In this document: positions 5,793-32,146 of the stretch, piece by piece
Position numbering within the stretch: position 1 is the stretch's first letter
Layout: each line of letters opens with the position of its first letter
Assembly: GCA_012522475.1 (NCBI GenBank)
Contig: JAAYKH010000046.1
Location: 1-32,146 of the forward strand
Direction: 5' to 3'
Source of the DNA: Chloroflexota bacterium
GTDB taxonomy: Bacteria; Chloroflexota; Anaerolineae; Anaerolineales; Anaerolineaceae
Length of the DNA stretch: 32,146 nt
Position numbers and translations under genes: made by a program
The notes under the pieces: generated by a model
What the model saw: the letters and a program-made list of their open reading frames with translations, nothing else
Databases searched by the model: none
What the model was told of the DNA's origin: nothing

Positions 5793-7466
5793 ATGCCCTA
5801 TCATTATATTGATCTCCGCAAAGTCCGAACCTATCCCCTCGCCCAGCGGAAAAATCTGGTGAATGCAAATGATCTCATCCACCCGGATAAGACCACCTCC
5901 ACCTTTGATTCACTGGAACTCAGCAAGGTCACCGAGTTGGTTGCAAAAGCCCAGCATGAAAAACGCCCAATAATTTGGATGATGGGAGCCCACGTCATTA
6001 AAAGTGGTTTGGGATTAATCTTGATCGATCTAATGCGCCATGGCTTTGTTTCTCACATCGCCGGTAATGGCGCCGTCGGTATTCACGATTTTGAGCTAGC
6101 GTTGATTGGCGAGACCAGTGAAGATGTGGCAACAAGCATTGAAGACGGCACCTTTGGCATGGCCGAAGAAACCGGTGCGCTCATCCATCAAGCCCTCAAG
6201 GAGGGTGCAAAAGACCGCCTGGGTTATGGTGAATCCCTGGGGCGATTGATCTCAAACCTAAATTTTCTGCATCGCGAGGTTAGTGTTCTTTACCACGCTT
6301 ATTTGCTCAAAATCCCATTCACAATTCACGCGACCCTGGGTGCAGACATTATCCATCAACACCCTGATTGCGATTTTGGGATTTTAGGCGCTTCATCCGG
6401 CCATGATTTTAAAATTTTTTGTTGTACAGTTTCAAAGCTGAGCCGTGGTGTTTTTCTTAATTTTGGTTCTGCAGTTACCGGGCCCGAAGTGTTCCTGAAA
6501 GCATTGTCAATCGCCCGCAATTTGGGGCACAAGGTTGATGGTTTCACAACAGCAAATTTTGACCTGTTTCCAGTCCCCGGTGATTACCACAAACCCGTCA
6601 GCGCAGACCAACCCGTATATTATTACCGTCCGTTAAAAAACATTGTAAACCGCCCAACTTCCCTGGATGGCCAGGGATTTCATATCCAGGGCGATCATCG
6701 CCTGACGATTCCCACACTTCATCAACAGCTCATCACACAGCCTGCGCCAACAACTACGCCACCTGCCCGAGAAGAGCAAATTCTTGATGCATTTTCCTTT
6801 CATTTATCTTCGGTTGAAGAGCGCAACCCGCAATCAGCAGATGAGGTTAACAGTCTGCTTAATCGTAAACCCGAACTCAAACCTGCTCTTCCTGCGCTCT
6901 GTCAGGCTTTTTTGACCATTGCCCAGGCAATTGACCGGGGGGGCACCCTTTATCTGTACGGCAATGGCGGAAGTATGGCGGATGCACAACATATTGCTGG
7001 TGAGCTTCAGAAATCTTTTTTGTTGAAACGTCCACTGGATGATGGCACTAAATTACGCCTGAACAAGTTTGAACCGGGTAAAACCCTATCAACTAATCTG
7101 GAAGCAGGCTTGCCAGCCGTCACCTTGGGGCTAAATCCGGGGTTGAACTCAGCGATAGACAACGACTTTGGTGAGCGTTGGCTGAGTATTGCCCAGGAAT
7201 TACAGGTTTTAGCCAGAACTGGCGACGTATTTTTGGGTATCAGCACCAGTGGAAAGGCCAAAAACATCGAATTTGCCAGCTTTACAGCACGAGCGAAAGG
7301 CTGCATCACAATCCTGTTGACTGGCGAACATGAAAGCAATTTATCAAAATTTGTTGATATTGCCATCCACGCGCCGGGTTCCAAAACCCACCTGGTTCAG
7401 GAAGCTCATATTGCCCTTTATCATTGTTTATGTGCCATGCTGGAGCATGATTTTTTCGCAAGTTAG
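5793..7466 (+). CDS. Fusion protein: deoxyhypusine-synthase-like domain plus GmhA-like SIS domain
   Basis: A 557-residue protein in two parts. Residues about 1-325 resemble bacterial relatives of deoxyhypusine synthase (Pfam DS): MMGAHVIKSG near residue 62, GNGAVGIHDFELALIGETSE, HATLGADIIHQHP and FLNFGSAVTGPEVFLKAL follow the order of the NAD-binding fold of that family. The SWGK stretch with the lysine that real deoxyhypusine synthases need is not visible, so hypusine formation is unlikely. Residues about 350-557 are a SIS domain of the phosphoheptose isomerase (GmhA) family: GNGGSMADAQHIAGEL at 390-405, GDVFLGISTSG, and HLVQEAHIALYHCLC with the Gln/His that bind metal in GmhA. The ATG at 5793 has a GAGAG nine bases upstream; an in-frame TTG at 5784 is the alternative. 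The gene lies 109 nt after the permease and probably belongs to the same operon, so its substrate may come from the imported sugar. Confidence 0.75.
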   Translation: MPYHYIDLRKVRTYPLAQRKNLVNANDLIHPDKTTSTFDSLELSKVTELVAKAQHEKRPIIWMMGAHVIKSGLGLILIDLMRHGFVSHIAGNGAVGIHDFELALIGETSEDVATSIEDGTFGMAEETGALIHQALKEGAKDRLGYGESLGRLISNLNFLHREVSVLYHAYLLKIPFTIHATLGADIIHQHPDCDFGILGASSGHDFKIFCCTVSKLSRGVFLNFGSAVTGPEVFLKALSIARNLGHKVDGFTTANFDLFPVPGDYHKPVSADQPVYYYRPLKNIVNRPTSLDGQGFHIQGDHRLTIPTLHQQLITQPAPTTTPPAREEQILDAFSFHLSSVEERNPQSADEVNSLLNRKPELKPALPALCQAFLTIAQAIDRGGTLYLYGNGGSMADAQHIAGELQKSFLLKRPLDDGTKLRLNKFEPGKTLSTNLEAGLPAVTLGLNPGLNSAIDNDFGERWLSIAQELQVLARTGDVFLGISTSGKAKNIEFASFTARAKGCITILLTGEHESNLSKFVDIAIHAPGSKTHLVQEAHIALYHCLCAMLEHDFFAS

Positions 7467-8636: not shown

Positions 8637-9404
8637 TTAATCAAAGGCCATCACATTAAGCTGATAGCGTTCTTCAAGCTCATCTGCAATTACTTTCAGC
8701 CGATGAGCGTTCACAGATTTAACGCCTGCATATGCCGTTGGTCGGCTGGTTGAGTAGATATGTATTAGCTTTGGTTTCAGTTCAGCCAGCAAACTTGCCC
8801 ACGCTGTGTAGGCGTCACCATGAACGTTTGAAATTTCTCCATCCAACAACAGGCTTTGGATCATCAAATTGGGCAATTTTCTCAGGCTTGAAACCAGGTT
8901 ATTGAAATCAATCTCTTCAGATGGCCGATTGAGCCTTTGAAATGTGGTTACATCCCCGGCATCAAGTTTCATCATCGGTACATCAAACATCCCTAACGTT
9001 GAAATGATGTTTGGGTCAACCACTCGCGAGGCATTGGAAAAGATCGCTAGTTTAGCCTCTGGACGCAGTTCATTACGCAGTGTGAACACCCCATGGACAA
9101 TCTCAACAAAATCAGGGTGCAAGGTTGGTTCACCATTTCCTGAAAACGTAAGCATTTCAATCGTGCGGGGTTTCATTAATGCATGCTTAACTGCCTGAAG
9201 AATAGCATTCACTGAAGGGAAAACAATTTGAGTTTTTGTAAGGTCGATTACCTTTGCCGGTCCGTATTGGCAGTAAAGGCAATCGAAAGAACATGTCTTT
9301 CGGTCTGTGGGCAGTAAATTGATCCCCAATGAACGCCCTAACCGTCGAGAAAGGATCGGCCCATAGATGATCCCGGGTTGTAATCGTATTCCAGGCATTG
9401 GCAT
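8637..9404 (-). CDS. Radical SAM protein (COG0731-like Fe-S oxidoreductase)
   Basis: A 255-residue protein with the radical SAM cluster motif CSFDCLYC (Cys38, Cys42, Cys45) preceded by SRRLGRSLGINLLP, and a typical SAM-binding stretch LTFSGNGEPTLHPDF (the GGE-like motif). This arrangement is that of the COG0731 group, whose members are radical SAM enzymes of mostly unknown substrate, related to wyosine-type tRNA modification proteins. There is no extra Fe-S domain and the protein ends about 200 residues after the cluster, as usual for the group. Two Met codons (9404 and 9398) are possible starts; neither has a strong Shine-Dalgarno site. The gene lies downstream of the sigma-factor gene but is separated from it by a disrupted terminator. 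Confidence 0.8.
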   Translation of the reverse strand: MPMPGIRLQPGIIYGPILSRRLGRSLGINLLPTDRKTCSFDCLYCQYGPAKVIDLTKTQIVFPSVNAILQAVKHALMKPRTIEMLTFSGNGEPTLHPDFVEIVHGVFTLRNELRPEAKLAIFSNASRVVDPNIISTLGMFDVPMMKLDAGDVTTFQRLNRPSEEIDFNNLVSSLRKLPNLMIQSLLLDGEISNVHGDAYTAWASLLAELKPKLIHIYSTSRPTAYAGVKSVNAHRLKVIADELEERYQLNVMAFD

Positions 9405-9473
9405 CTTCTTTATCGGCTAACCACCGTTGGCATACACCTTTGTTAAGTCCAATTAACTGAACGGTGTAAAAAA

Positions 9474-9558
9474 GAAAAGGCATTGGAAATGTAGTGCACC
9501 TCCTCGGTTGGATTTATTGTCCAACAAACGGGGTGCAGTTCAAAACCATGCCTTTTCC
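9474..9558 (-). terminator. Terminator of the sigma-factor gene, split by an inserted element
   Basis: The outer arms GAAAAGGCATTGG (9474-9486) and CCATGCCTTTTC (9546-9557) pair with one bulged T. On the minus strand the hairpin is followed by a T-rich run (9478-9468), as expected for a rho-independent terminator of the gene that ends at 9580. A 53-bp IS-like element plus an AAA duplication now occupies the loop. The inner arms of that element are themselves complementary, so a longer imperfect hairpin of about 85 nt can still form. Confidence 0.75.
9490..9542. mobile_element. 53-bp mini element made of two IS150-like terminal inverted repeats (MITE-like)
   Basis: The left end starts TGTAGTGCACC (9490-9500). 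The right end, read on the minus strand from 9542, is TGAACTGCACCCCG followed by TTTGTTGGAC. The left end shares its first 11 bases with the IS at 31969-31993, and the right end matches that IS at all but a few positions. The two arms agree with each other at 17 of 23 positions. AAA flanks both sides (9487-9489 and 9543-9545), as expected for the 3-bp target duplication of an IS3-family element. There is no coding capacity. Confidence 0.7.
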
Positions 9559-9579: not shown

Positions 9580-10605
9580 TTACAGATAATTTCGCAGTCT
9601 GCTTTGATTCTGTGGACTGCGTAACTTTCGAAGTGCCTTTTGCTGGATCTGGCGGATTCTTTCGCGTGTTACACCGAAAATTTCGCCCAGTTCCTTGAGT
9701 GTGTGGCTGCGGTTACCCTCCAACCCAAACCGTAACTTGATGATGCTGGCTTCTCGCTCGGAGAGCTCACCCAGCGCGTTGGTGATATCTTCCTCCAAAA
9801 GACGCTGCTGTACGGAATTAAAGGGCACAACTGCGTTTTCGTTTTCAACAAAGTGGATCAGTTCGCTCTCACCGTCTTCACCAACGGGTTCATCAAGTGA
9901 AATTGGCAAACGAGCGTAATGAATTAATTGCCGCAGTTCATCGACATCCTGTTCCACATGCTCTGAGATCTCCTCAAGGGTTGGCTGACGGCCTAATTCT
10001 TGTGATAGATCTCGTGTAACCGTGCGAACTTTTCGCAGTCGATTACTTAAATAATTAGGCAAGCGAATCGTGCGCTCTTTTTGATTGAGAAAGCGCAAAA
10101 CAGATCGCCGAATCCACCAGGTAGCATAGGTACTAAAGCGATTCCCTCGGGTGTAATCGAATTTATCAACAGCACGAATCAAACCGACATTCCCTGCCTG
10201 GATCAAATCGAGGAATGATGAGCCGTAACGCCGATACTTTTTAGCGATGCTGACCACCAAGCGAATATTTGCTTTGATAAGATACTCGCGGGCTTCTTTG
10301 CCCTCACGGATCAACTCCTGGATTTCTTCGATATTATCGAGGTCCCCATCAGCGTCAATCATGGTCTGTCGAGCCTGACGGCCAATTTCCATTTTCTTCG
10401 CCAGGGTGATTTCCTCTTCGCGGGTTAACAAAGGCACCCGGCTCATTTCGTTCAGGTATAGACTGACAGAGTCATCAGAGGTTATCCCCGTATGATCTGA
10501 AATATACTCTTCATATTCCATTTCGTTTTCATCGGCATGTTCATCATAGAACGAAGCATACTGATTTTCCAACACTGCATCCTCAGAATAATTAAGATTT
10601 GTCAT
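9580..10605 (-). CDS. RNA polymerase sigma-70 family factor, group 2-like
   Basis: A 341-residue sigma factor without region 1.1. Region 1.2 is at about 43-75 (DDSVSLYLNEMSRVPLLT), region 2 at about 105-175 (LVVSIAKKYRRYGSSFLDLI and RFSTYATWWIRRSV), region 3 at about 190-250 and region 4 at about 275-341. The last has the -35 reading helix GVTRERIRQIQQKALRKLR identical to primary sigma factors. In region 2.4 the positions matching E. coli Gln437 and Thr440 are Arg167 and Leu170, so the -10 preference may differ from the housekeeping factor. I therefore call it a group 2-type factor rather than the main SigA. The ATG at 10605 follows AAGGAG by 11 nt; the frame continues upstream to 10707, but that stretch includes the promoter-proximal inverted repeat and is unlike sigma factors. 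Confidence 0.85.
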   Translation of the reverse strand: MTNLNYSEDAVLENQYASFYDEHADENEMEYEEYISDHTGITSDDSVSLYLNEMSRVPLLTREEEITLAKKMEIGRQARQTMIDADGDLDNIEEIQELIREGKEAREYLIKANIRLVVSIAKKYRRYGSSFLDLIQAGNVGLIRAVDKFDYTRGNRFSTYATWWIRRSVLRFLNQKERTIRLPNYLSNRLRKVRTVTRDLSQELGRQPTLEEISEHVEQDVDELRQLIHYARLPISLDEPVGEDGESELIHFVENENAVVPFNSVQQRLLEEDITNALGELSEREASIIKLRFGLEGNRSHTLKELGEIFGVTRERIRQIQQKALRKLRSPQNQSRLRNYL

Positions 10606-11001
10606 CTTATCACTTACTCCTTTTTTACGTCCCAAATTTCTTTCTTTTCTATCTGTTATCCAAAATTTGGGTTTCAAGCGAAAAAAAGCCATTGACCAAG
10701 TAACCATTGCGTCAATGGGCTATAATCAACTTACAAGTTTTTAAGAGATCTATCTGCTATTTTGTCACCTATTATAGCCGATTTTCAACCACATTGTAGT
10801 ATTGATATGTTAATATTCTATAAACAAATTAAAAATATCCTGTAATTAATGCCAATTTCAAACATATATTGCAATTATAAACAATTTTATGGCGTTTAGT
10901 CAAATTTACAACACATTTCTTTTTCGAGTTAAATTTTGGTGAAGGATTGAATATTTGAAGATTTTTAGGGTTTTGTTGCCGGCTGTTTATTTCTTGGACG
11001 C
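10606..11001. other. Intergenic region: sigma-factor control region and AT-rich spacer
   Basis: This 396-bp stretch has no convincing gene. On the minus strand a TATAAT box lies at 10776-10771 with only a weak -35, and could drive the sigma-factor gene with a leader of about 160 nt. Perfect 8-bp inverted arms CCATTGAC (10689-10696) and GTCAATGG (10711-10718) lie in that leader. The rest (10800-11000) is AT-rich and shows no clear terminator for the AmrS gene that ends at 11002. Confidence 0.45.
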
Positions 11002-22445: not shown

Positions 22446-23810
22446 ATGAACGAAACTATTTCTGCCAGCGATGATTTAAAAACTGAATCTCTTAAACAAC
22501 GTAAACGTACCCAAACTTTATTAGCTTTATCGGCTGGGTATTTTGTTGATCAGGGTGAAGGGCAGGCGATGTCGATTTTCTCGCCTGTACTGAAAACACT
22601 CTGGTCATTAACCAATATGCACCTGGCGTGGATTACCTTTGCCCGCAGTTTGCTTCAATCACTCAGCTCGCCTTTTTGGGGCTATCTGTCTGATCGGTAC
22701 TCTCGAAAGAAAGTCCTGCTGATTGGGACTGGATTATGGGGCATTTGGACGATTGTTGTTGGGTTTACACAAAGCTATCAACAGCTGTTGCTAATCCGGG
22801 TGATATCAGGGCTTGGGCTGGGCTGCCTTATGCCGGCGACTTTCTCAATCATGGCCGACACGTTCCCCCCCAGAATGCGGGGGAAAATGCTCGGTATCCT
22901 GGAAGCTATTGGTGTTTTGGGAATTATTATTTTCACGGTTGGGCTGGGCGCATTGGCTACCCCTGAGCTTTGGCGATATGGCTTCTTTATTCTGGGTGTC
23001 GCTAGCGTTATCTCTGGTTTTATTATCTGGTTTCTTGTAGATGAACCGGTTCGAGGCGAAGCAGAGCCAGAGATGCAGGGTCAATTGACACAAGAGGACG
23101 CAGAACGCTATAAAGCAAAGTTCTCGGACATCAAAAAATTGATGAAAATTCCAACCATCTGGGTTGCTATCGGGCAGGGGTTGGCAGGCTCCATGCCCTG
23201 GGTGGTGATGGGGGCATTCCTGATCCTGTGGCTGGTTGAAGTTCGTCATGTCGATACAACCCAGGCCCCCTTGATTTTTGGCGGTGTTGTTATTGGAACA
23301 GCCATCAGCAATGTTCTGGGGGGGATTATTGGCGACTATGCTGAAAAAGTCAGCCCTAAATACGGCCGAGCATTTATTGGCCAATTGTCGGTCTTTTTTG
23401 GTATTCCATTCACGTATTACCTTTTCACAAGAACGGAAAACTGGAGCCTGGTCAAACTAGCAATTTTATGATATATGACCGCATTACTGATTAGCTGGCC
23501 AGGCAAGGGATCAAAAGAACCGATGATCCAGGGCGTGGTCACGCCAGAGCTGCGCTCATCTGCGTTTTCATTTATTACTTTTGTTGAAAGCGGGTTTGCC
23601 GCCATTGCTGCGTTGATTTTTGGTATCCTGGCAGACAAAATTGACATTCAAACGGCAATGTTATGGACTGTTCCATTTCCGTGGTTGATCTGCGGTATTC
23701 TGTTTTCAGGCTTCTACTTCTCCTATCCCAAAGATTCAAAACGTCTCCGGGATGAGATGGCAAGGAGAGCTGTTGAATTAGGTATCTCAGATGGTGCAGA
23801 GAGTCAATAA
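22446..23810 (+). pseudogene. MFS transporter gene interrupted by one in-frame TGA
   Basis: The frame encodes a major facilitator of about 454 residues. The first part (341 codons) has about nine helices, the loop 2-3 motif GYLSDRYSRKK and a central charged loop (VRGEAEPEMQGQLTQEDA). It ends at a TGA (23469-23471) after NWSLVKLAIL. The same frame goes on as YMTALLISWPGKGSKEP and covers the last helices to 23810. TGA in place of TGG (Trp) would restore an unbroken membrane helix, so a single G-to-A change is the simplest cause. AAGGAG lies ten bases before the ATG at 22446. The substrate is unknown. A sequencing error is an alternative to a real pseudogene. Confidence 0.8.
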
Positions 23811-23838: not shown

Positions 23839-23870
23839 AAAAAAATCCACCATCAGCTGGTGGATTTTTT
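23839..23870. terminator. Bidirectional terminator between the MFS gene and tRNA-Asp
   Basis: A perfect stem (TCCACCA at 23846-23852, TGGTGGA at 23858-23864) has a 5-nt loop. Six or more A lie on the left and six T on the right, so it terminates in both directions. Its right foot touches the tRNA 3' end. Confidence 0.9.
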
Positions 23871-23946
23871 GGCGGGAGCGACGGGATTTGAACCCGCGAT
23901 CTCGGCCTTGACAGGGCCGCATGTTGAACCACTACACCACGCCCCC
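23870..23946 (-). tRNA. tRNA-Asp (anticodon GTC), CCA encoded
   Basis: Read on the minus strand, the gene starts GGGGGCG, which pairs with CGCTCCC at the 3' side (one G-U pair). A D-arm follows, then the anticodon stem CGGCC/GGCCG with loop CTGTCAA (anticodon GTC), a 5-nt variable loop, the T-arm with GGGTTCAAATCCC, a G discriminator and an encoded CCA (23872-23870). Total length is 77 nt including CCA. It has its own promoter and terminator and stands alone. Confidence 0.96.
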
Positions 23947-28317: not shown

Positions 28318-31300
28318 ATGAAAAACCGTTTGGAATCCCTTGAATTACAAGGCCTAAAAACCTTTGCAATCAAAACGCAATTAGAATTTCCTGGAAAAAT
28401 AACTGCAATCGTTGGCCCGAATGGGTCGGGGAAATCGAATATAGCGGATGCAATTCGTTGGGTGCTGGGCGAGCAGTCTTTTTCGCTGTTACGAGCGAAA
28501 AGAACGGACGATATGATATTTTCAGGGTCGCAACAACGCTCCCGGGCCGGGATGGCTTCAACCACAATTACTTTCAATAACGAAGATGGCTGGCTGCCGA
28601 TTGATTATTCCCATGTTGCGATTACTCGCCAGGCTTACCGAGACGGTCAAAATGAATATATTTTGAACGGACAAAAAGTGCGTTTGAAAGACGTCTCGGA
28701 ACTTCTATCTCAAACCGGGTTGTCTGAAAGAAATTACACTATTATTGGTCAGGGTTTGGTTGATACAGCTTTGGCGTTAAAACCTGATGAGCGCAGAAAG
28801 CTATTTGAAGAGGCTGCTGGGATTGGACTGTATCGCTCCCGTAAGGAAGAAGCCCAACGCAGACTGGAAAGCACACGCAAAAACATGGATCGGGTGCTTG
28901 ATATTCTGACAGAAATTAAACCTCGGCTGAGGAGCCTCGAACGCCAGGCACAGCGATTTCAAGAATATCAACAAATTCAGGCAGATTTGCACCTGGTGTT
29001 ACGAGAATGGTATGGCTTTCAGTGGCATCAAAAGCAACAGGATTTGCGGCAAACTCATAATGCATACCAGGAACAGGGAGCCCGTATGCGCTCCTCGCGC
29101 AAGAAACACCTTGAAGCAGAGACAAAAGTGGAAGAAGCTCGAGCCCAATTGCAGTCCTATCGCAAGGAACTAGAAGCCTACCATCGAGAGCTGGCGGAGA
29201 ATCACAGCCATCTGGAGCAAACCACACGTGAATTGGCCATAATCGAAGAGCGTCAGCGTTCATACGAACTTCAGAAAGATAACTTGGAGCTTGATATTTC
29301 AAACCTTGAAGAAGAAATCAAGGGCATGGATGCTCAGGGTTTGACTTTGACCACCGAGATTGAACAGCGACAGAAAGATTTCAACTCGGGTGCTGAAGAT
29401 GTAAAAATTTCAACCCAAAAACTTGTCGACATTCGGAAAACAAAGGAACACATTGACATCGAATTGGATGACCTTAAAACGAAAAGAATCCAACTTGAAA
29501 CAGAGAAGATCCAAGGACTGGTTCGTATAGAAGAGCTCAACAATCAAGAGCTTACGCTTCTCGATGAGCGTGGAAAAATTCAAAACGCGATCAGCATGAT
29601 GCAGACCGAAACTGAAGAAGTGAAGCAGCAGTGTTTATCCGCAGAAGCAATTTTAAAGAAAACCTTTCAGAATTTTGAAAAGCAACAAAAGCAGATTGAC
29701 TTGCTCTCTGAAAATTTGGATGAACTTGAGCATGAACATACAAAAATAAAGCAAGAAATTAATGATAAAGACAACCAAAGAGAAAAATTAACGACGCAAC
29801 TAACGCTATTAAAAGACGCAGAAAAAGCTTTAAGTGGTTACTCTGAAGGTTCAAAAAAATTGCTGGAGATCTCGCGTCAGGGACGTTTATTGCAAGGGAT
29901 TGAACCTATTTCCCAATATATAGTCGTTGAAGAGCAGTACGAACGAGCCATCAGTGCAGCACTGGGTGAATTAACAGATTTACTGGTGATGCCTCCTCAA
30001 GGAAGAGCAAAATTAATTAACTACCTTGAATCAAAAGAAAATGACCGGGTGGCGTTGGTATCAATAGATCAAACCGGCCAAGGACATCATCAGCAAAATT
30101 TTAATGAAATGGATGGTGTGATCGGCTTTGCTAATACGTTAGTTTCGGCTGAAGTACCCTACAAAAACCTGATCGACATATTGCTTTCTGATATCCTGAT
30201 TGTCAAAGATGCCGATGCGGCAGAACGTTTGACAAACAACCTGAAAACACCAATTATCGTTGTTACTTTGTCCGGTATTGTCTTTCATCCCAAGGGGATT
30301 ATCATCTCTGGTCAGAGCCCTACGGGGAAACGAATTGGACGTACAAGGCAGCACAGTGAATTGCAAACGGAACTCCTGAGGGTTCAAAAAGAAATTGAAA
30401 CACTTTCAAAAGAGCAAACTCGCGCCAGCAATTCGATAGCACAATTACTGGCTGAACAACAAGAATTAAAGCAAGTATTAACGCTTTACGAACAGGAAAA
30501 GCTATCCAACGAGCGGGCTTTGCAAGATGTAAATGACACCCTGGCGCGCTTAACAGAACAGCAATGCTGGCATAATGATCGCCTGAAGACGTTGGATACA
30601 ACGATTAACGAAATTCAATCCTCGATTCAATCTGGGCAAGGCAAATTGGTGGATCTGGATGGGCAAATTAACGTGGCGCTTGAAGAGGAACAAAATATCA
30701 ATCTCAAATTAAAAGCCATCCCGCTTTTTGAAACCCAACAAACACTTAACCAATTGGAGACCCATCAACTAATTGCCCAAAACGCGCTTGAATCTGTTCA
30801 ACAGCGCTTTCAGGACAACTCCGACCGGTTAGAAATGGCCAAACAACGCTTGCTAGGGTTAAAATAACGGCACAATCAAATCACTTCCGGTTTGCTCAAA
30901 ATAGAAAATAATCGCGGTATCCTAAAACAAAGACTTTCTGAAATCCAAGAAAAAATATCGCTTTTAGAAAGCGAACACGTCGAGCCCCTTTCAGAGGTTG
31001 GGGAAGAAACAGAAAAATCTGTGTCGGGCTTGCAAAAAATTGAAACGGAATCACATCAACAAGTGATTATTGCTGAACGTCAGCATACACAATTGCAACT
31101 GGAACTGGGACGCAAGCAAGATCAATTGGACCTTCTCAGGGAACGTATCAAGGACGATTTTGGATTGGTCTCTTTTGAGGGTGATCAGAAATATGACGAC
31201 CCAACGCCATTACCTTTTAATGACGAACTGGTTGAAGATTTGCCTTATCTTGAAGAAATTCCAGAAACCCATGAGGATGATATTAAGCGACTGAAGAGCC

Positions 31301-31929
31301 AGCTGCGGCGTATTGGCGCAATTAATCCAGAAGCACAACAGGAATATTTTGAAGTCAAAGACCGTCATGAATTCCTCACCAACCAGGTTGCCGATTTAGA
31401 CAAAGCCAGCAAAGACCTGCAAGAGGTTATTGAAGAGCTGGACACAATGATGGAAATCGAATTTATTAAAACTTATCAGGCTGTTAATAAAGAATTCTCT
31501 GCCTATTTTTCCCGCCTGTTCAATGGTGGAGAAGCGAAATTAGTGTTCGCTGACGATGAAAAGCCTGTTGAGGGTGGTGTTGACATTGAAGCCCGTTTGC
31601 CAGGCAGAAGGCAACAAGGTTTAGCTTTACTGTCCGGTGGCGAGCGTAGTTTAACAGCTGTTGCATTGATTTTCGCTTTGTTAAAAGTATCGCCCCCCCC
31701 ATTCTGTATTTTAGATGAGGTTGATGCGATGCTCGATGAATCGAATGTGGGGCGTTTCGTAGAAGAACTGCGAGAGCTTTCGAAGCATATCCAGGTGGTA
31801 ATTATTACGCACAACCGGAATACAGTTCAAGCAGCGGATGTGATTTATGGCGTCACAATGGGGCGTGATTCAACCAGCCAAATGATCAGCCTTAAACTTG
31901 AAGAGGTTGGCGACGCCTATTTCGCTTAA
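28318..31929 (+). pseudogene. smc: Chromosome partition protein SMC gene with one in-frame TAA stop
   Basis: The frame spans 1203 codons, normal for SMC, but codon 850 is TAA (30865-30867). Before it lie the N-terminal head with Walker A GPNGSGKSN and DAIRWVLGEQS, a long coiled coil, and the hinge (about 515-680, GIEPISQYIVVEEQYERAIS). After it lie the rest of the returning coiled coil and the C-terminal head with signature LLSGGERSLTAVALIFAL and Walker B FCILDEVDAMLDE. Condensin SMC binds and organises chromosomal DNA with ScpA/ScpB. The stop falls mid-coiled-coil; the next start-like codon in frame (TTG 30892) has no Shine-Dalgarno site. Because smc is usually important and both halves are otherwise intact, a sequencing error, a recent mutation, or a functional split protein are all possible. 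Confidence 0.85.
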
Positions 31930-31946: not shown

Positions 31947-31962
31947 CAAAAAAGAGGCGCCT
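31947..31962 (+). terminator. Probable 5' arm of the smc terminator, cut off by an IS
   Basis: Six A followed by GAGGCGCCT, 18 nt after the smc stop, has the look of the left arm of an A/T-footed rho-independent terminator. No matching right arm follows within the window, because an IS end begins at 31969. The right arm is predicted beyond the far end of the IS. Confidence 0.45.
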
Positions 31963-31968
31963 GTGAAT

Positions 31969-32146
31969 TGTAGTGCACCCCGTTTGTTGGACGGAAATTA
32001 GGTAAAGAAACCGGACTGAGTTCTGTAAGCCACAGGGCTCAATCCTTTTAGTTTAACCTTTATTCTATCAAGATTGTAATACTCTAAATAATCTTCCAAC
32101 TCGTGTTTGAAGGCATCAACTGAAGCAAAAGTTTTGACATGAAAAA
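31969..32146 (-). mobile_element. IS3-family (IS150-like) insertion sequence, one end only
   Basis: The terminal inverted repeat begins TGTAGTGCACCCCG and goes on TTTGTTGGACG (31969-31993), in the style of IS150-group ends. The 3' end of the transposase gene lies just inside it on the minus strand. The element runs out of the window, so its other end and target duplication are not visible. Confidence 0.85.
31998..32146 (-). CDS. IS3-family transposase OrfB, C-terminal 49 residues (partial)
   Basis: The minus-strand frame reads FHVKTFASVDAFKHELEDYL, then EYYNLDRIKVKLKGLSPVAY, then RTQSGFFT and a stop (32000-31998). The YNxxRI-KLKGLSPVxYRTQ ending is the classic C-terminus of IS150-group integrase-type (rve, DDE) transposases that cut and join the element ends. 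The DDE residues themselves lie outside the window. The stop codon is 5 nt inside the inverted repeat, the usual compact arrangement. Confidence 0.92.
   Translation of the reverse strand, partial: FHVKTFASVDAFKHELEDYLEYYNLDRIKVKLKGLSPVAYRTQSGFFT

Follow-up and report, generated by a model that had tools for sequence, protein, structure and literature searches.

Probable targeting of intrinsic terminators by an IS150-like branch of IS3 elements, as seen from a 53-bp derivative in a sigma factor gene terminator

How does a short piece resembling the ends of an insertion sequence (IS) come to sit in the loop of a transcription terminator? The question is raised by a 32,146-nt stretch of DNA from a Chloroflexota bacterium of the family Anaerolineaceae, which was analysed over its full length (the window) and is one entire contig (G000:C19) among the 89 that make up a 2.26-Mb genome. 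The minus strand of the window carries the gene of a sigma-70 family sigma factor (9580..10707; open reading frame with Pfam Sigma70_r1_2, r2, r3 and r4; orthologues at 85-89% identity), and the next gene downstream, identified by its open reading frame and Pfam, encodes a radical SAM protein (8637..9404, minus strand). After the sigma gene, the minus strand runs from GGAAAAGGCATGG-TTT through 53 bp to TTT-CCAATGCCTTTTCTTTTTT. The 53 bp (9490..9542) are flanked by a target duplication, AAA on the plus strand and TTT on the minus strand (9487..9489 and 9543..9545), and beyond it by the 5' arm (9546..9557, minus strand) and the 3' arm (9474..9486, minus strand) of a split stem, followed by the TTTTTT of a terminator (9468..9473, minus strand). 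Removal of the insert and one AAA gives the minus-strand hairpin GAAAAGGCAT-GG-TTT-CC-A-ATGCCTTTTC, then TTTTTT, with a fold energy of -15.0 kcal/mol, where shuffled sequences average -5.7 (sd 2.3) and 0/200 fold as low; its stem begins 22 nt past the sigma-70 stop codon. The initial annotation, which had placed a 53-bp element in a terminator loop, expected its removal to restore the hairpin and attributed that hairpin to the sigma factor gene, is borne out in each of these respects. With the insert in place, the 104-nt stretch folds into a single long hairpin ahead of the T-run (fold -39.5, z -6.75; 0/200 shuffles as low).

The same annotation had described the insert as consisting only of two inverted repeats matching the IS at 31969; its last bases do match that IS, but its first 48 nt (9495..9542, minus strand) are an IS left end, comprising the terminal repeat and the left-end hairpin. 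Two bare inverted repeats are thus rejected in favour of a left end plus a right terminus. Within the 48 nt, 44/48 positions are identical to the full left end at G000:C60:6793 and 48/48 to a fragment at C14:86253, while GGTGCACTACA, the last bases of the IS right end (9490..9500, minus strand), is identical to 31969-31979. GGTGCA (9495-9500, minus strand) is common to both IS ends: the 53-mer follows the left end up to GGTGCA and continues with the CTACA of the right end, which points to an internally deleted IS150-like element with the shared hexamer as the likely deletion joint. All four differing bases lie after CCCC, where the 53-mer and the C14 fragment have GTTT and the full left ends found in the genome have AAAA; both therefore probably stem from an older subtype, and the direct parent of the 53-mer is absent among the copies seen. 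The C14 fragment (L039, from 86253) is an IS left-end hairpin without a right end that leads into a T-run, terminator-like and IS-derived in appearance.

Such a molecule could be formed in place or could move by itself. A pattern of the left arm plus a closed right terminus, applied to 147 family genomes, matched in eight; these matches, read together with hits from other searches, gave nine complete derivatives of 50-53 bp in seven Anaerolineaceae genomes: that of the window, G013, G485, G025 (three copies; we take this genome to be Leptolinea tardivitalis), G533, G542 and G020. The remaining matches were left ends without a closed right terminus (other-strand reading), and across 400 genomes of the phylum the pattern was found only in the window's own genome and G013. 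Six of the nine derivatives lie in a hairpin loop, against a mean of 0.51 and a maximum of three in flank swaps, and those of G013, G485 and G533 lie outside hairpin loops. Some terminate in ...GGTGCAGTTCA, which reproduces the left terminus and is unlike the full IS right end. Alternatively to in-place deletion, the 53-mer might be a truly mobile MITE, moved by the transposase of the full IS and inserting on its own into terminator loops. The occurrence of nine derivatives of about 50 bp in seven genomes favours such mobility, as do the three G025 copies, which have both termini and in one case a 4-bp duplication (GTCG), the close similarity of 51-mers from two congeneric genomes, and the window copy with both termini and a 3-bp duplication. 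However, a single complete copy was found in the window's genome, copies within one genome differ in sequence and right terminus, a 3-4 bp duplication accompanies 2/9 derivatives and is absent in 7/9, and the in-place deletion of a full IS yields the same product. The derivatives as a set would fit a mobile mini-element as well as recurrent in-place deletion; for the window copy, deletion is favoured on account of the GGTGCA joint, and we regard the MITE reading as rather doubtful.

The full-type element is represented in the window by the right end of a second IS copy (31969..32146, minus strand; identified from sequence and genome matches), which is cut by the contig end and lies 39 nt past the stop codon of an SMC-like gene. 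It retains the C-terminal 48 codons of OrfB, an IS3-type transposase (31998..32144, minus strand), for which PF13333 scores over its cut-off and NF033516 below it (31.9 bits), as expected for a fragment. Its inward terminator-like hairpin (32013..32049, plus strand) has a stem of 32013-32020 and 32038-32045 with one mismatch, followed by TTTT, and beside it lies one half of a split hairpin target, reading outward ATTCACAGGCGCCTCTTTTTT (31948..31968), the other half of which is not assembled with it. In the rest of the genome, searched with the insert-bearing stretch and with OrfA and the matches read, contigs break inside the full-type element, and the middle of the IS was not found assembled. 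Complete left ends were found at C60:6793, C66:3540 and C83:52092 and a truncated one at C65; right ends at C19:31969 and on C55, C20, C23 and C24. The left end is TGAACTGCACCCCAAAAGTTGGACAATAAATCCAACCGAGGAGGTGCAGTTTTTATG, at the ATG of which OrfA begins, and the right end is ...GTCCAACAAACGGGGTGCACTACA. In the copy on C65 (L050, L056; contig position 5928), the left end is missing and host AAAAAGAGG directly joins the left-end inner arm TGCAGTTTTTATG. Pairing left and right ends by duplication gives C60+C55 (TTT), C66+C23 (AAA) and C83+C24 (ATA), and the joined sites are hairpins; as these three pairings were chosen partly by duplication and hairpin match, they serve as illustration only.

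Some other features of the window may be recorded here. The SMC-like gene (28318-31929, plus strand) consists of two open reading frames that share a frame and are separated only by one in-frame TAA (30865-30867); Pfam SMC_N matches each half, and the split is either a sequencing error or a real disruption. Likewise, an MFS transporter gene (22446-23810, plus strand) comprises two open reading frames in one frame with an in-frame TGA (23469-23471), the second part matching MFS_1 below the curated cut-off. A tRNA-Asp gene (23870-23946, minus strand) is the only RNA gene from tRNA and Rfam scans of the window.

Assignment of the element to the IS3 family draws on its relatives. A relative's OrfB piece reaches 200.6 bits with NF033516 (cut-off 160) and exceeds the cut-offs of PF00665 and PF13333, giving an OrfB with the rve/DDE integrase core. 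The start of OrfA (G000:C60:6847) is matched by several Pfam helix-turn-helix models over their cut-offs and by the NCBIfam IS3 model below its cut-off; in the relative L049/L058, OrfA is followed by a frameshifted OrfB, so that an OrfA with a helix-turn-helix lies upstream of OrfB. The terminal inverted repeats begin with TG and a 3-bp duplication is formed, with no duplication in 11/33 two-sided related loci. Within the family, the IS of the window may belong to the IS150 group; E. coli IS150 itself forms a long branch (1.01) of uncertain placement among the sampled sequences, in an OrfB tree without other IS3 groups as outgroup. An OrfA search of 61 genomes (own and relatives; E<=1e-10) matched in the own genome and G025 only, and the relative's OrfB piece had no match in 396 genomes of the class (E<=1e-30), a set from which the query's own genome is possibly absent. 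One related IS with a frameshifted OrfB (L058, from position 2100; = G025:C14:100451) lies in a terminator-like hairpin just past a tRNA-His gene (2000-2074).

Do full copies choose the same kind of site as the 53-mer? Outward T-runs (at least six T in eight bases within 40 nt) were found at 8/8 untruncated IS ends of the own genome, scored without the truncated C65 copy and the C14 fragment, and at 17/21 IS ends in other Anaerolineaceae, making 25/29 with the own genome included; the Anaerolineaceae set comprised 22 relative loci, of which one small derivative was set aside and one gave no end, plus two ends without a locus. When named genomes were scanned with the relative's OrfB piece, the best 80 of at least 574 matching stretches, from four phyla, had a readable right flank in 70 cases, 68 of them distinct, and a T-run in 54/68. 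T-runs were absent from 14/68 named right flanks and 4/29 family ends. The background was 3384/12800 at random positions and 1107/3000 (37%) at random intergenic positions. Base composition at the named loci shows T most frequent at +15 to +20 beyond the right end and A most frequent at -14 to -22 beyond the left end; the zone separating the two, where the stem lies, is richer in G+C. Flanking genes point at the IS site in 22/32 cases on the left and 45/62 on the right, 42 of these 67 ending no more than 60 nt away. As genes are aimed at the site from both sides and the T-runs and A-runs are of about equal strength, no fixed orientation of the IS relative to the terminator could be demonstrated. 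In an OrfB tree of 71 rows, T-run-bearing and T-run-less loci are mixed (15 changes; shuffled mean 13.7), and T-run loci occur in all larger branches; thus, with T-run-bearing loci spread over branches of four phyla, the preference is not limited to one small clade.

Whether the preferred sites are hairpins can be read where both flanks are available. This is the case for 33 named loci, of which the 22 with a 3-4 bp duplication were rejoined and, with four own-genome sites, gave 26 sites; the 11/33 that lack a duplication did not enter the hairpin test. Rejoined sites fold at a mean of -16.8 kcal/mol, whereas 300 flank swaps, in which left and right flanks are exchanged among sites and composition is kept, average -7.6 (sd 0.5), with -9.0 as the lowest value. 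A first criterion, the junction lying in a predicted loop, gave no discrimination (20/26; swap mean 13.3, maximum 20), and since A-runs and T-runs pair with each other, the loop count from minimum free energy (MFE) folds was replaced by a stem score. With a stem score of at least 20 and a centre no more than 4 nt from the duplication, 17/26 sites (14/22 named) are hairpin-centred, versus a mean of 2.35 and a maximum of 6 in 200 swaps; 84/3000 (2.8%) random intergenic positions qualify. At 5/26 sites the hairpin lies 5.5-7.5 nt off centre (L075, L098, C66+C23, L096 and L121, the last two scoring 19) and at L074 23.5 nt off centre; L119 has a junction hairpin in its fold that the ungapped stem score missed, and L073, L105, L106 and L122 have no convincing hairpin at the junction. 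Clean terminator sites among the relatives include those occupied by elements of Anaerospora hongkongensis (L109) and Flavobacterium (L112). Across the sites of this test the target stems vary, without a conserved repeated palindrome of the kind targeted by REP-associated elements. The presence of many full-length relatives, in four phyla, at the same kind of site suggests that this branch seeks out terminator hairpins. The initial annotation had proposed a non-autonomous element that targets hairpin loops; the loop preference indeed extends well beyond one copy, but it is seen in the full, autonomous-type IS.

This preference was looked for in two further sets of IS3 elements. Thirteen E. coli IS150 loci were taken (MG1655 and 12 chosen from a listing of 30 across 3382 records); a T-run is present in 2/12 readable right flanks and an A-run in 4/13 left flanks, with three of the four coming from a single locus, and 10/13 loci adjoin annotated hok or mok genes. 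GAGGC occurs at +5 to +9 in 8/12 IS150 right flanks (L139, L141, L142, L143, L145, L146, L147 and L149), of which seven of eight lie beside hok or mok and several are the same locus. E. coli IS150 may have a different specificity of its own. In another IS3 subgroup of Anaerolineaceae, a T-run is present in 1/7 assessable flanks, a flank bounded by a contig end having been left out. The terminator pattern is absent from E. coli IS150 and from the other IS3 subgroup in these small samples (12-13 and 7 flanks).

The ends of the element themselves resemble terminators when read inward. Among distinct left ends, 37/40 fold the terminal repeat onto an inner arm just before the OrfA start, and 35/40 have this hairpin with a T-rich foot; among right ends, 61/64 have a hairpin of at least 8 bp and 51/64 a T-rich foot. 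In the own genome, the GGAGG before OrfA sits inside the left-end hairpin. With inward hairpins and T-rich feet at most ends, the ends look like terminators against incoming host transcripts, and such hairpins could shield the transposase from read-through expression and give the genes to either side a working terminator again. The element may thereby replace the terminator that it splits, so that terminators would be an inexpensive niche, with little cost to the host. The same inward hairpins, together with the convergence of genes on the sites, lend some weight to an explanation without any targeting, by which the IS inserts anywhere and only insertions into terminators survive because its ends restore termination. 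However, neutral survival between genes leaves the concentration on hairpin centres unexplained (17/26 versus 2.8% of intergenic positions), and the pattern is absent in the other IS3 subgroup (1/7) and in E. coli IS150 (2/12 right flanks); survival as the sole cause is therefore unlikely.

The state of the sigma gene terminator before insertion can be seen in related genomes. A search for relatives without the insert, proposed in the initial annotation, found the sigma gene's orthologues in five congeneric genomes (G006, G013, G014, G011 and G010), each with an uninterrupted hairpin and T-run that begins 19-25 nt past the stop codon. The empty-site stems are AAAAGGTCAT...ATGGCCTTTT in L174 and L175, AAAAAGCCAT...ATGGCTTTTT in L176 and AAAAGGTCA...TGACCTTTT in L177, and the terminator of L178 has a stem unrelated to the others. 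That 9474-9558 is an ancestral composite terminator without any insertion, as its folding into a single long hairpin might imply, is rejected as scarcely credible, given the simple terminators at the five orthologous loci, the 3-bp duplication around the insert and the match of its first 48 nt (44/48) and last 11 nt to the IS left and right ends. Neither copies at random sites without hairpins nor an ancestral terminator without an empty site, the two outcomes against which the insertion had been weighed, describes what was found.

Taken together, these results make it highly probable that an IS150-like branch of the IS3 family selects intrinsic terminators and inserts at or near the hairpin loop with a 3-bp, sometimes 4-bp, duplication, and that the window holds one right end of such an element (31969) and, in the sigma gene terminator, a 53-bp deleted derivative composed of the left-end hairpin and the right terminus with GGTGCA at the joint. 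As far as sequence can tell, the make-up of the insert is secure, as are its empty sites in relatives, the preference for this kind of target across four phyla and the inward terminator-like hairpins at most IS ends. Building on them, we infer that the preference would act at integration and not only via survival, through recognition of either the hairpin or the symmetry of A-tract, stem and T-tract; that the IS ends would then restore termination, keeping the host cost of insertion low; and that the 53-mer probably arose by deletion between the GGTGCA repeats, not by transposition of a ready-made mini-element. Of a more general account we are more tentative, though it is plausible: a cross-phylum IS3 branch might recognise the whole class of intrinsic terminators by their structure, be it an extruded DNA hairpin or the dyad of A-tract, stem and T-tract, rather than by their sequence, with terminators at both of its ends replacing the split one and hairpin mini-elements arising as a by-product.

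If true, this would give a widespread group of transposable elements a simple and general safe-haven rule, namely intrinsic terminators, with a logic comparable to that of group IIC introns at terminators. Insertion of Tn7 at glmS follows a comparable safe-haven logic. It would also provide an instance, open to testing, in which DDE transposases pick their target by nucleic-acid shape, allow insertion sites to be predicted, show one way in which bacterial genomes gain new terminators and 3' ends, and account for small hairpin-in-hairpin oddities such as 9474-9558.

Several known systems bear on this interpretation. The likeness to E. coli IS150 lies in the ends (TGTACTGCACCC...GTTGGAC there, TGAACTGCACCCC...GTTGGAC here) and the 3-bp duplication, and that to IS150-like members of the IS3 family in the match of OrfB of the window IS's relative to the NCBI IS3 model; in contrast, the sampled E. 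coli IS150 sites lack the terminator pattern (2/12 right flanks). Group IIC introns insert downstream of a hairpin, and ISPpu9, which is not known to belong to the IS3 family, is a further point of comparison. IS1397, ISKpn1 and ISPsy8 of the IS3 family are described as inserting in REP palindromes; for ISPsy8, the insertion point is the symmetry axis of a predicted hairpin and the duplication is of 3 bp (PMC1525189). The IS1397 precedent invoked in the initial annotation is thus real (PMC1525189), although E. coli IS150 itself shows no terminator pattern in the sample. Like these REP-targeting elements, the present one inserts into palindromes, but theirs is one conserved repeated palindrome, whereas here the stems vary and the intrinsic terminator is the common feature (PMC1525189). 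Group IIC introns, likewise mobile elements found at terminators, are said to target putative transcriptional terminators (PMC7923331); unlike the present element, they are retroelements that insert by reverse splicing and not by DDE transposition. ISPpu9 is REP-targeting and has a structure in the 5' part of its transposase mRNA that buries the ribosome-binding site, as the left-end hairpin here holds GGAGG, but is itself regulated by two small RNAs (PMC8450116). IS-derived bacterial MITEs resemble the 53-mer in being short, with terminal inverted repeats and a parent IS in the same genome; the 53-mer class, at about 50 bp, holds little beyond the two ends (PMC4596501). Among the matches listed in a search of open-access titles and abstract starts, no description of IS3 or IS150-like elements in intrinsic terminators appeared, so that an earlier description may exist elsewhere. 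Against the known background of REP-palindrome insertion by IS3 elements and of terminator use by group IIC introns, the choice of intrinsic terminators by IS150-like elements would seem to be a new variation.
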